NCBI RefSeq assembly: GCF_000382365.1
Contig: NZ_KB908230.1
Location: 1 to 64,000, forward strand
Length of the DNA stretch: 64,000 nucleotides
Source: Pannonibacter phragmitetus DSM 14782
GTDB lineage: Bacteria; Pseudomonadota; Alphaproteobacteria; Rhizobiales; Stappiaceae
Direction of reading: 5' to 3'
This document shows positions 58,345 through 61,838 of the stretch, piece by piece (the stretch's first letter is position 1; every line of letters starts with the position of its first letter). The position numbers were made by a program, and so were the translations under genes. The notes beneath the pieces are model-generated. The model did no database searches. It saw nothing but the letters and a program-made list of their open reading frames with translations, and was not told the DNA's origin.

Positions 58345-58863
58345 TCAGCGCTCCGTCTCGTGCCAGCAATAGATGGACAGCTCCAGCCGCTTGCCGCCCG
58401 TCTGGTGCCAGGAGCGGCCGGTCAGCACACCGCCAAGGGCGGCATAGAAGCCGCAGGCCGGTTCATTGTCCGTCAGGACGCGCACCGCAAGGCCCTTGAG
58501 ACCGCGCCGCTCCAGACAGGTTCTGACGCTGGCAAACAATCTGCGGCCAAAGCCGAGGCCCTGATACTCCGGCTTGAGATAAAGCTCGTAGAGCTCTCCG
58601 GCGCAGCCGGTGCCCCGCATGCGGCAGGGGCCATAGCTGGCATAGCCTGCCACCTCGCCCGCGACTTCCAGGACTTCGATCTCGACACCCTTGTCGATGG
58701 CATCATGCCACCAGCCGCCGCTGCGGCGGGCGACAAAGCGCTCCAGGTCCAGCCCGTCGAGCATGCCCCGGTAGGCAAGGCGCCACGCCTGCGCATGCAC
58801 GGCCGCAAGGCTGGCCGTGTCATCATGTCTTGCGGGGCGCAGTTCCACGAGGCTCGTCGTCAT
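58345..58863 (-). CDS. GNAT-family N-acetyltransferase
   Basis: 172 residues: MTTSLVELRPARHDDTASLA, the beta4 strand ELYELYLKPEYQGLGFGRRL with the acetyl-CoA loop Q-G-L-G-F-G-R, and NEPACGFYAALGGVLTGRSW. The substrate is unknown; ribosomal-protein or small-molecule acetylation are both possible. The ATG at 58863 is preferred; the frame extends to 59136 through a terminator and a probable small RNA, which argues against the longer form. Confidence 0.88.
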   Translation of the reverse strand: MTTSLVELRPARHDDTASLAAVHAQAWRLAYRGMLDGLDLERFVARRSGGWWHDAIDKGVEIEVLEVAGEVAGYASYGPCRMRGTGCAGELYELYLKPEYQGLGFGRRLFASVRTCLERRGLKGLAVRVLTDNEPACGFYAALGGVLTGRSWHQTGGKRLELSIYCWHETER

Positions 58864-58945
58864 GGGCAGATGATAGCCGGACGGAAGGTAAACGGGAAGC
58901 GGGCAATGAAAGGGGACCGGCTGATCTGCCGTTGCGGCAAATGAA

Positions 58946-58971
58946 AAGGGCCAGCACGAGTGCTGGCCCTT
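58946..58971 (-). terminator. Strong hairpin terminator upstream of the GNAT gene
   Basis: Perfect 12-bp stem AAGGGCCAGCAC/GTGCTGGCCCTT with a two-base centre, followed on the minus strand by TTCATTT. It lies 83 bases upstream of the GNAT start, so it ends a transcript coming from 58972-59100 rather than a protein gene. Confidence 0.7.
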
Positions 58972-59085
58972 CAGGTGCCCGTTCGAATGTACTTCAGCAC
59001 TCAACCTGATCAGCTCCGTTCCGGGGGGCTGGGGGGCTAATGCGTACCGGAACCAGAACCGTTCAGGCCGAACGGGTATGATCAT
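58946..59085 (-). ncRNA. Candidate small RNA with C-rich loop
   Basis: Reading the minus strand: CCGTTC-GGCCT-GAACGG hairpin (59059-59075), then GTTCCGG...CCGGAAC (arms 59047-59053 and 59018-59024) enclosing a loop with CCCCCCAGCCCCC, then the 12-bp terminator at 58946-58971. TATGAT at 59081-59086 could be a -10, though no good -35 is seen. No open frame on this strand here looks coding. C-rich loops of bacterial small RNAs often pair with ribosome sites. An attenuator leader of the GNAT gene is the alternative. Confidence 0.5.
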
Positions 59086-59288
59086 AAGATGGTGGGTCAA
59101 CGTGGCTTGTGAAGGGCTCAATTGAGGCAAAAGCAAGGTATCTTTTCAGCATTCCTGCGGCCCCGGAACCCTGTCATCCGCAGGCTTGCCAGTGCGCCCC
59201 GCAAGGGGCATCATGACAACTCAATGACATATCCTCGCCGGCAGGCATCAGCAGGTCTGATTCCGCTGCAAGGTTGACGGGAGGTGGC

Positions 59289-59717
59289 ATGAGCGAGAGC
59301 GAAGCAGACGCAGCCGGACAGCCGCAGGGCGTTCCTCATGAAATGTCTGTCCGGCCGGACAGTCCGCCCGGTTCCAGTGCCCAGTCGGCCGTTCCGCAGA
59401 TCCCGGCGAAACCCGTCGTTGCCTTTGACCGGAGAGAGCTCGACCAGATCCTGCGCATCTATGGCCGCATGGTCGCGGATGGAGAGTGGCGGGACTATGC
59501 CATCGACCTGATGAAGGACCGGGCCGTCTTCTCCGTCTTCCGCCGCAGCAGCGAAATGCCGCTTTACCGGATCGAGAAGGACCCGAAGCTTGCCCGCCGC
59601 CAGGGCGCCTACAGCGTGGTGGCGACGGGCGGCATGGTGCTCAAGCGCGGGCCCGAGCTGGCATCTGTTCTCAAGGTCTTTGAAAAGAAGCGCCATCTGC
59701 GGCTGGTGGATGCCTGA
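59289..59717 (+). CDS. DUF2794-family protein
   Basis: A 142-residue cytosolic protein. The first 45 residues are low-complexity; the rest is the DUF2794 domain, seen widely in alphaproteobacteria: VVAFDRRELDQILRIYGRMV, EWRDYAIDLMKDRAVFSVFR, LYRIEKDPKLARRQGAYSVV. Function unknown. Start MSESEADAAGQ at 59289 with GGGAGGTGGC directly upstream. A terminator follows its stop. Confidence 0.85.
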   Translation: MSESEADAAGQPQGVPHEMSVRPDSPPGSSAQSAVPQIPAKPVVAFDRRELDQILRIYGRMVADGEWRDYAIDLMKDRAVFSVFRRSSEMPLYRIEKDPKLARRQGAYSVVATGGMVLKRGPELASVLKVFEKKRHLRLVDA

Positions 59718-59747: not shown

Positions 59748-59781
59748 AAAGGCCTCCGGACGGTCTCGTCCGGAGGCCTTT
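59748..59781. terminator. Bidirectional terminator
   Basis: Perfect 15-bp stem AAAGGCCTCCGGACG/CGTCCGGAGGCCTTT with a GTCT loop between the convergent DUF2794 and subtilase genes. A-runs and T-runs at the stem ends suit both directions. Confidence 0.8.
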
Positions 59782-59801: not shown

Positions 59802-61838
59802 TTAGAAGCGCAGGCTCAGTTCGGCGTTGACCGAATGGGACTGGGCGTTGCGGCGCAGTTCGCCGCCGTAGGACAGCTTGCCGGTCAGCTTCTGGCTGGC
59901 ATTGGTGGCGGCAACACCAAGGTTGAGCCGCCCGATATCGCGGCCGAGATCGGGAGCTGCGCTGTTGATGGAGCGGCCCAGCATCTGAACATTCCGGCCG
60001 GCGGCCACAGGGCCCAGGGCGCGGGCATAGGCGATGTCCATCATCGGCGTCACGCTGTAGCTGCCCAGTGCGATGGGCGTGGCCGACAGGCGCAGGCCAA
60101 CGCCGGTTTCCGAGCCCGTTGAGGTGGTGCTGCGCAGGCTGACGTTGAACACGTCGGCGCCTGTTTCGTTGCCCGATCCGAGCCACTGATGGCGGACGCG
60201 GCCGTGCACATAGGGGCGTGCCAGAAGGCCCTCGGTCTCGAAGGTCATGCCGATACGTGCAGAGGCAGACAGGCCGAGATCCGTGGTCTTCGTCTGGCCA
60301 TTGACGGCCAGGCTGGTGCCTGAACCGGTGATGTTGTTGCGGTCGAGCGTATTCTCGAAGCGCGAGAAGCTGGACGCGGCTTCGAGGAAATAGCGGTCAT
60401 AGGTATAGCCGCCATAGATCAGGGCATGGAGGCCGCTGATACGGGCCCGGTCACCGCCGCCATGCATGGACGAGGTGCTGAAGCCGCCGGCTGCACCAAG
60501 ACGCAGGTTCTCGGTTGCGATGAACTCACCGCCCACCAGAAGGCCCGCGCTGCGGCTGGTGGAGGAGGCGGAGGTGGAGGTGCCGTCCATCAGGCTGACG
60601 CCCGCCAGCGACTGCACCCAGAAGCGGCGGCTCGCTTCGCTGGGCGCTGCCCCATTGGTAGAAACGGCAACAGCAGGCCCCGCCGGATCCAGCAGTGCGC
60701 TGGCACGCTGCTCGGTGATGCCCATGACCTGGTTGACGGCCTGCGTCTGCACCTGTGCGGTCTGTGAGAAGGATGACACCTTTCTGACGTCATTCGTGCT
60801 CGTCAGCCGGTCGAGGTTGAGCAGACCCCAGCCGTATTGCCTGTCGATACCGGCTGCGCCGATATCCGAGGCGGTCAGCAGCACGAGACGGGCCAGCTGC
60901 TCCGGCGTGGCGTTGGGGTACATCTGCTGGGCGATAGCCAGCGCACCCGTGACGTGCGGCGTGGCCATCGATGTCCCGGAGAAGCGCACATAACCACCGG
61001 TGTTGGCCGTGGAGTAGATGCCGTCATTGTCCTGATCGTCACCGCCGCCGGGCGCTGCCAGACACCACATCATCGTGACGCCGCAGTGATTGGAATAGGC
61101 AGGCGAGGTGCCATCGCGGCCCACGGAGGTCACTGCAATCCAGTTGGGTGTCAGTTCCGGGTAGAGATAGGGCATGGCGGCCTGAACACCGGCATCGGTT
61201 GCCCCGTCATTGCCGGTTGCCCAGACAAGCACTGCGCCCCGGCGCGCAGCTTCACGTGCCGCTGCCAGAAGTTCGGCATCGTCCTCTTCGAAGGACGCCC
61301 GGTCGGCTGCCAGATCGCCTGAGGGCACATAGACGTAGCTGCCCCAGGAATTGTTGAAGATCCGGATGCCGTTGTTGAGGCCATATTCGAGCACCCGGGC
61401 GGCGTATTCGTTCTCGATCTTGCCATCGTCATCCATGATGGCGAGGTTCACGAGCTTGGCCCCCGGTGCAACGCCCATCATGCCGAAACCGTTGGCTGAT
61501 GCACCGATGATCCCGGCCACATGGGTGCCGTGGCCGTCGGCATCGGTGAAGGTCGCCATTTCTTCAAAGCCATTGAAGTTCAGGCCACTGAGGTTGGCGA
61601 TCAGGTCCGGATGGCTGGCGAGAATGCCCGTATCAAGGACGCCAACCGTGACGCCGGCCCCGGTGTAGCCACGGGAATGCGCGATCGGGGCGCCGGTCAT
61701 CAGCAGCCCCCACTGGGCATCATATTCGTTGACCGGCACAAGTGGTGCCGCCTGCAAAGCTGCCGCGCCAAAGAAGAGGGTGGATGCTGCCGTGGCACCG
61801 AGAAGTGCGGCACGCAGAAAATGTAAGTGTGTACGCAT
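59802..61838 (-). CDS. Subtilisin-like serine protease autotransporter
   Basis: 678 residues. Signal peptide about 1-31 (LLGATAASTLFFGAAALQAA). An S8 peptidase follows: D69 in GVTVGVLDTGI, H103 in DADGHGTHVAGIIG, oxyanion N210 in VLVWATGND and S290 in RFSGTSMATPHVTG. A linker leads to a C-terminal autotransporter barrel of about 260 residues (FWVQSLAGVSLMDG onwards), ending NAELSLRF with the terminal Phe used by the BAM machinery. The enzyme is therefore exported and displayed on or released from the outer membrane. Compared with large S8 autotransporters it is short: there is no long beta-helix passenger. Single gene with its own terminators. Confidence 0.94.
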   Translation of the reverse strand: MRTHLHFLRAALLGATAASTLFFGAAALQAAPLVPVNEYDAQWGLLMTGAPIAHSRGYTGAGVTVGVLDTGILASHPDLIANLSGLNFNGFEEMATFTDADGHGTHVAGIIGASANGFGMMGVAPGAKLVNLAIMDDDGKIENEYAARVLEYGLNNGIRIFNNSWGSYVYVPSGDLAADRASFEEDDAELLAAAREAARRGAVLVWATGNDGATDAGVQAAMPYLYPELTPNWIAVTSVGRDGTSPAYSNHCGVTMMWCLAAPGGGDDQDNDGIYSTANTGGYVRFSGTSMATPHVTGALAIAQQMYPNATPEQLARLVLLTASDIGAAGIDRQYGWGLLNLDRLTSTNDVRKVSSFSQTAQVQTQAVNQVMGITEQRASALLDPAGPAVAVSTNGAAPSEASRRFWVQSLAGVSLMDGTSTSASSTSRSAGLLVGGEFIATENLRLGAAGGFSTSSMHGGGDRARISGLHALIYGGYTYDRYFLEAASSFSRFENTLDRNNITGSGTSLAVNGQTKTTDLGLSASARIGMTFETEGLLARPYVHGRVRHQWLGSGNETGADVFNVSLRSTTSTGSETGVGLRLSATPIALGSYSVTPMMDIAYARALGPVAAGRNVQMLGRSINSAAPDLGRDIGRLNLGVAATNASQKLTGKLSYGGELRRNAQSHSVNAELSLRF

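Follow-up and report, generated by a model that had tools for sequence, protein, structure and literature searches.

Introduction

The intergenic small RNAs of alphaproteobacteria include the alpha-r families ar7, ar9, ar14, ar15, ar35 and ar45. Another, BjrC174 (Rfam family RF02355), reportedly goes up in nodules. It is described in passages of PMC4842269 as an abundant Bradyrhizobium small RNA with validated promoter activity. In Caulobacter, the C-rich loop of the small RNA GsrN pairs with a G-tract of katG, as set out in parts of PMC5869019, and the regulator ChvI activates the small RNA ChvR, according to passages of PMC9731502. The binding motifs given for such regulators differ. For Sinorhizobium meliloti ChvI the consensus is N-GCC-N8-GCC, as quoted in PMC9731502, and a different motif, TTGC-N3-GCAA, is proposed there for Caulobacter ChvI, for which the authors themselves want validation. 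CenR, an alphaproteobacterial regulator of the OmpR family, is described in parts of PMC9275681 as recognizing the repeat TGA-N8-TGA.

Here we analyze a minus-strand locus of Pannonibacter phragmitetus DSM 14782 (Stappiaceae, Hyphomicrobiales) within the first 64,000 nucleotides of contig NZ_KB908230.1 (the whole stretch analyzed, hereafter the window), for which an earlier note had proposed a small RNA with an exposed C-rich loop and a strong terminator. As judged from sequence comparison, this stretch is almost certainly an independent small RNA gene homologous to BjrC174.

Results

Locus and predicted transcript

The locus lies between a downstream acetyltransferase gene on the same strand and a divergent DUF2794 gene, and comprises the following features (window coordinates):

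58944-59079, minus strand: small RNA gene, predicted transcript of about 136 nt
59069-59076, minus strand: 5' strand of stem P1 (CCCGTTCG), a perfect 8-nt inverted repeat with 58978-58985
58978-58985, minus strand: 3' strand of stem P1 (CGAACGGG), partner of 59069-59076
59004-59068, minus strand: P2, a long hairpin bearing the C-rich loop, nested within P1
59023-59038, minus strand: C-rich loop AGCCCCCCAGCCCCCC, candidate pairing seed
58944-58971, minus strand: intrinsic terminator, perfect 12-nt arms 58971-58960 and 58957-58946, with TTTT
59128-59126, 59117-59115 and 59106-59104, minus strand: three GCC boxes at 11-bp spacing, candidate ChvI-type site
59114-59109 and 59091-59086, minus strand: promoter-like elements CTTCAC and CATCTT with a 17-nt spacer, from the alignment, by eye
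59289-59717, plus strand: divergent DUF2794 gene, a conserved neighbor (PF10984, 140.3 bits at 59418-59672)
58345-58863, minus strand: GNAT-type acetyltransferase gene, downstream and beyond the terminator, ATG at 58863 (family named by eye)

The transcript probably starts near 59079, just 3' of the -10-like CATCTT from which this end was derived, and this position replaces a start at 59100; the 3' end was taken from the T-tract. Two covariance models, R1 and R3, match 58941-59088 and 58944-59083, respectively, both having been trained with the Pannonibacter sequence. The earlier note was right that no protein gene separates the RNA from the divergent gene, whose identity as DUF2794 follows from the 140.3-bit PF10984 match. 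This neighborhood is widely retained: among 136 family loci, chosen by their C-rich core and not by the GCC boxes, 119 have a divergent DUF2794 gene no more than 1 kb away, as do 72 of the 85 dereplicated loci. Three further core-bearing loci (L128, L129, and L153) were left out as non-family based on their taxon labels and the absence of DUF2794 and of boxes. The Brucella DUF2794 gene BAB1_0087 is listed among MucR-affected genes in the relevant part of PMC10746212. On the far side of the Pannonibacter DUF2794 gene, a strong hairpin between A and T tracts (59748-59781, by eye) lies before a convergent gene and could serve as terminator for both, and a 678-aa open frame on the minus strand (59802-61838) has the appearance of a subtilisin-type autotransporter (by eye).

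Covariation and fold

To assess the stems, 34 Stappiaceae sequences, chosen for having the core and terminator motifs, were folded singly and aligned with MAFFT. Changes on both sides were found at 26 of 48 pairs, including 5 of the 8 pairs of P1, and both-side changes occupied 140 alignment cells, compared to 50.4 ± 6.5 in shuffled alignments. The covariation score reached 0.275, against 0.149 ± 0.008 after shuffling and no more than 0.113 in slid versions, a control in which the structure is favored because it was derived from the same 34 sequences. The compensatory changes on which the stems were to stand or fall, a test set beforehand, are thus present. The terminator by itself says little here, since it hardly varies; both it and the core had also been selected for. 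An order-wide alignment of 43 sequences, fitted to the model, yielded a covariation score of 0.550, against 0.178 when shuffled. Alongside this covariation, the proposal of a small RNA gene is borne out by conservation in many genera, by the element upstream and the terminator, and by an expressed Bradyrhizobium homolog.

The fold is also unusually stable. Minus-strand positions 59085-58942 fold at -68.1 kcal/mol, compared to -46.6 ± 3.8 for shuffled sequences (z -5.69), and the longer piece 59100-58942 gives a z of -4.77; in both cases, none of 200 shuffles was equally good. Pairing of 59076-59069 with 58985-58978 to form P1 was recovered in 33 of the 34 separate folds, Pannonibacter included (32 for one pair of the eight), inner P2 pairs in up to all 34, and 11 terminator pairs in 33-34, among rows that had been chosen with the terminator motif. 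A small hairpin between P1 and the terminator is weakly supported, with 74% of cells paired.

These results revise the architecture first proposed, which had three well-formed stems following one another. The stems exist, but not in serial order, since the middle one is nested inside the outer P1. What had been read as the first hairpin (CCGTTCGGCCTGAACGG) is not the fold that is conserved; instead, its 5' part (59076-59069) pairs with 58985-58978. The description of exposed C-tracts holds, with an unpaired probability of 0.98-1.0 for the first (59036-59031) and partial pairing at the two ends of the second (59028-59023). So does that of a terminator at the end of the RNA, where the base of the stem formed by two perfect 12-nt arms overlaps the T-tract (58947-58944). 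More broadly, the C-rich core is at least half unpaired within a hairpin that has 10 or more pairs in 70 of 72 sequences, compared to 398 of 1440 flank shuffles.

Relation to BjrC174 and CC3664

When the window was searched at Rfam gathering thresholds, the only match was a tRNA. Below threshold, none of the alpha-r families (ar7, ar9, ar14, ar15, ar35, and ar45) appeared among Rfam matches to 58850-59300 at E-values up to 10, and matches to ctRNA_p42d and to microRNA families, located at or near the terminator stem or hairpins, were taken as chance. RF02355 matched the Pannonibacter RNA across the whole model with 27.7 bits (E 0.0033), below its 45-bit gathering threshold, and scored 29.0, 28.8, and 27.0 bits in the relatives L002, L011, and L007. 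The Bradyrhizobium-type locus L052 scored 175.5 bits, and L078, at 45.5 bits, was just over the cut-off. In the reverse direction, a model built from Stappiaceae only and without BjrC174 (R2) finds L052 over its full length with 35.2 bits (E 2.4e-5), next to a divergent DUF2794 gene (67% identity). We regard the Pannonibacter RNA as a homolog of BjrC174 because of these intermediate genomes, the shared place divergent from DUF2794, and a common promoter element.

A second Rfam family, CC3664 (RF01530), has a weaker direct match to the Pannonibacter RNA (15.4 bits, E 3.2, under the 60-bit threshold). RF01530 was found in 62 of the 80 genomes of one family, 23 of them over the cut-off, and this family is taken as Caulobacteraceae since the control genome, Caulobacter vibrioides, carries RF01530. 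Both CC3664 and DUF2794 are present in that control genome, and DUF2794 is divergent at 23 of the 27 CC3664 loci in which the motif was located. R3, a model built from Hyphomicrobiales only and without Caulobacteraceae, recovers 21 of 30 Caulobacteraceae loci over their full length at E ≤ 0.05 (best 4.2e-5), the other nine having E > 0.05 or being unlisted. With the same model, three controls sharing only the C-rich core reach E-values of 0.011 (L153), 0.045 (L128), and 0.14 (L129) over 26-46 positions, the first two spanning 26-28, so that weak Caulobacteraceae scores alone prove little; other pattern-hit controls gave E 0.99 or worse. In the repeat upstream of CC3664, ACC is the usual form of the first box and GTC that of the second (by eye).

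Tandem copies were seen in some Caulobacteraceae loci (1494-1640 and 1730-1871 in L255; 1494-1646 and 1774-1936 in L258), with their own boxes and terminators (by eye), and genome G710 has a second RF01530 match.

BjrC174, CC3664, and the Pannonibacter RNA thus very likely constitute one family, and RF02355 and RF01530 should probably be merged. Among the open-licence papers searched, none was found that joins BjrC174 and CC3664.

Distribution among relatives

BLASTN found the RNA in 26 of 61 genomes, all of them Stappiaceae (26 of the 37 sampled). Some matches spanned only 28-29 nt around the core, and for these the complete RNA was identified by visual inspection before alignment. The AGCCCCCCAGCCCCCC loop is present in the 26 relatives found in this way, one having AGCCCCCCAGCCCCCT. 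Its invariance in the 34-sequence alignment is partly due to selection, as rows were picked by the loop motif. Among the 11 Stappiaceae genomes missed by BLASTN, 10 have a DUF2794 gene. Upstream of it, two (L383 and L388) carry the usual or a near-usual loop, and in seven the hairpin is there but its C-rich loop is altered (all by eye). In L389, a C-tract is lost and the loop reads AGCCTCCTGGGG, with stems and upstream boxes kept. Within one genus (L380, L381, L384, L385, and L387), the altered loop is ACCCCTACCCCCC (L380), GCCCCCATACCCCCC (L387), or ACCCCTCCCCCC, and these sequences may represent natural seed variants next to DUF2794. Such altered or eroded loops beside DUF2794 make these ten missed genomes look like cases of divergence, not loss.

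Across the wider order Hyphomicrobiales, the RNA was recognized upstream of DUF2794 in 25 of 55 regions (19 of 40 and 6 of 15), i.e., it is common but not universal. These regions, inspected visually on the strand where the RNA was expected, were chosen among the DUF2794 matches listed, mostly one or two per family, and one of the set of 40 was only 526 nt long. Among the core matches listed, the carriers with an adjoining DUF2794 gene include at least Roseibium, Stappia, Kaistia, Rhodobium orientis, Xanthobacter autotrophicus, Methyloligella, and Methylosinus, and members near DUF2794 were also found in further alphaproteobacterial families (L036, L046, L047, L392, L393, and L394). Using R1 to count the family within the order gave 169 of 249 genomes at E 0.01, a figure we rejected because many weak matches covered the terminator only. 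R3 retrieved 8 of 385 genomes over the class at E 0.001, among which L396 and L397 resemble terminators or repeats.

An 11-bp repeat upstream of the RNA

In an alignment of 26 rows including upstream DNA, two of the GCC boxes are invariant and the third is invariant at G and C and nearly so at its middle position. The CTTCAC and CATCTT elements were not found by a consensus promoter scan. Three GCC boxes at 11-bp spacing occur in 98 of the 136 loci (57 of 85 dereplicated), compared to 0 or 1 of 85 for any other spacing between 6 and 17 there, and 0-2 of 82-85 for any spacing in four control regions. The relaxed form GNC at 11 bp is found in 76 of 85, against 3-11 of 82-85 in the control regions, where other spacings reach up to 18 of 82. 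Retaining L128, L129, and L153 gives 98 (GCC) and 125 (GNC) of 139. As a rare genome-wide motif, the boxes were discarded, with 17 occurrences in the Pannonibacter genome compared to 19 for the control. Since the pattern alone is not enriched there, the argument for the boxes rests on their conservation.

This arrangement of three boxes, spaced by 11 bp or one helical turn and position-specific, fits the N-GCC-N8-GCC consensus, and there may be close to an even chance that ChvI is the regulator of this RNA. In passages of PMC4842269, the BjrC174 promoter is the most active of the tested promoters without a mapped motif, which is what a promoter dependent on an activator should show. CCNA_R0088, which we do not equate with CC3664, is among the top ChvI ChIP-seq hits in the part of PMC9731502 concerned, and R0089 is placed at 3.874 Mb in that of PMC5869019.

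Candidate targets of the C-rich loop

The complement of 12 nt of the loop, with at most one mismatch, occurs 40 times in the Pannonibacter genome, including on the opposite strand of the RNA gene itself, compared to 9 for a reversed-pattern control. Inspection of 28 sites revealed 11 that have, within 45 nt, a possible start codon for an open frame of at least 60 aa; the six of these that were translated looked internal to longer genes or unconvincing. The only other exact AGCCCCCCAGCCCCCC site in this genome (G000:C6:114194-114209, L325) lies in a repeat-rich intergenic stretch, is absent from the four other Pannonibacter genomes searched, and was rejected as a target. Overall, this own-genome search for loop-complement sites identified no target, and the masking of G-rich ribosome sites suggested in the earlier note remains a proposal. 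A conserved loop borne by stems that covary has the appearance expected of a pairing seed. By analogy with GsrN, we think it reasonably likely that the loop works by pairing with mRNA.

Discussion

Taken together, we consider it likely that the Pannonibacter locus encodes a trans-acting small RNA, activated by an OmpR-family regulator with ChvI as the foremost candidate, whose C-rich loop pairs with G-rich mRNA sites. A response regulator of this family, in the likeliest case ChvI from the ChvG-ChvI envelope-stress system, would bind the GCC boxes and switch on transcription of the RNA. The loop would then pair with G-rich stretches in target mRNAs, as in the case of GsrN and katG, and thereby alter their translation or stability.

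Several other explanations were weighed against this reading. The stems could be chance structures of intergenic DNA, given that GC-rich sequences fold easily and 28% of flank shuffles also give a hairpin under a loose test; yet with a z of -5.69, conservation over many genera, and a covariation test that had already come out against it, this explanation has a negligible probability. If the RNA instead acted in cis on the acetyltransferase gene, as its leader or attenuator, this would be consistent with the shared strand and with a T-tract ending 81 nt before the start at 58863. However, such a gene lies within 900 nt downstream in only 42 of the 136 loci (21 of 85 dereplicated; 9 of the 94 loci counted as lacking it had less than 900 nt of flank), while the RNA stays, so that a leader is highly improbable and the earlier suggestion of a trans-acting RNA is likely correct. 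We also deem it very unlikely that the boxes belong to the DUF2794 gene and that the RNA merely arises from a promoter region common to both. Although DUF2794 is indeed a conserved neighbor, the RNA itself covaries, two loci (L356 and L359) have the family RNA and boxes without a DUF2794 match inside their 3 kb, and some second tandem copies in Caulobacteraceae have their own boxes (by eye).

Two further alternatives retain the small RNA and change its partners. The strong conservation of the loop across genera and the target search that found none would both suit a loop that binds a protein, as a sponge or scaffold. But the wording of the loop drifts while its C-tracts stay (L380, L386, and L387), which is easier to explain by base pairing, and pairing has a precedent in GsrN, as described in parts of PMC5869019; protein binding thus seems unlikely. 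The identity of the regulator is more evenly contested, and it is quite possible, if somewhat short of an even chance, that the boxes are read by an OmpR/PhoB-type response regulator other than ChvI. Regulators of this type generally recognize tandem repeats spaced by about one helical turn (passages of PMC9275681), and the motif proposed for ChvI in Caulobacter is a different one (PMC9731502). The ACC and GTC boxes upstream of CC3664 and the lack of enrichment of the box pattern in the Pannonibacter genome likewise count against ChvI. Conversely, GCC-N8-GCC is the sequence quoted for S. meliloti ChvI in the latter, and CenR has TGA-N8-TGA in the part of PMC9275681 concerned.

If these RNAs indeed belong together, RF02355 and RF01530, so far kept apart as a Bradyrhizobium and a Caulobacter family, would form a single one spanning several alphaproteobacterial families with a common neighbor and promoter element, and an orphan small RNA would gain a regulator (ChvI) and a seed that can both be tested. 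More tentatively, BjrC174, CC3664, and the Pannonibacter RNA might be one ancient envelope-stress small RNA, a conserved RNA arm of ChvG-ChvI acting through its C-rich seed on envelope mRNAs. In that event, its role would parallel that of the sigma-E small RNAs in enterobacteria.

Several described RNAs are close to the Pannonibacter RNA. BjrC174 has a long hairpin with a C-rich loop (CAGCCCCCAGCCCCCCGG), an outer stem, and a terminator, and its locus L052 shows three GCC boxes at 11 bp (by eye) and a divergent DUF2794 gene; its stem sequences and loop entry differ, and L052 has one C fewer in its first C-tract. CC3664 likewise presents a GGATCCTGAACAGCCCCCCCAGCCCCCC-type loop in a hairpin, a divergent DUF2794, and an 11-bp repeat upstream, but usually has seven Cs in the first tract and, in some genomes, a tandem second copy. 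GsrN, compared here by description, shares an exposed C-rich loop, which pairs with katG mRNA, but is sigma-T-controlled, and the passages of PMC5869019 concerned report BLASTN matches in Caulobacteraceae only. Finally, ChvR resembles the Pannonibacter RNA in its proposed regulation, being a small RNA under ChvI-ChvG; it is described in parts of PMC6237742 as an 84-nt RNA encoded between CCNA_00157 and CCNA_00158, pairing via two other stem-loops, and lacking BLAST conservation beyond C. crescentus. Since the Pannonibacter-type RNA is, unlike ChvR, widespread, results obtained in one species could carry over to others.
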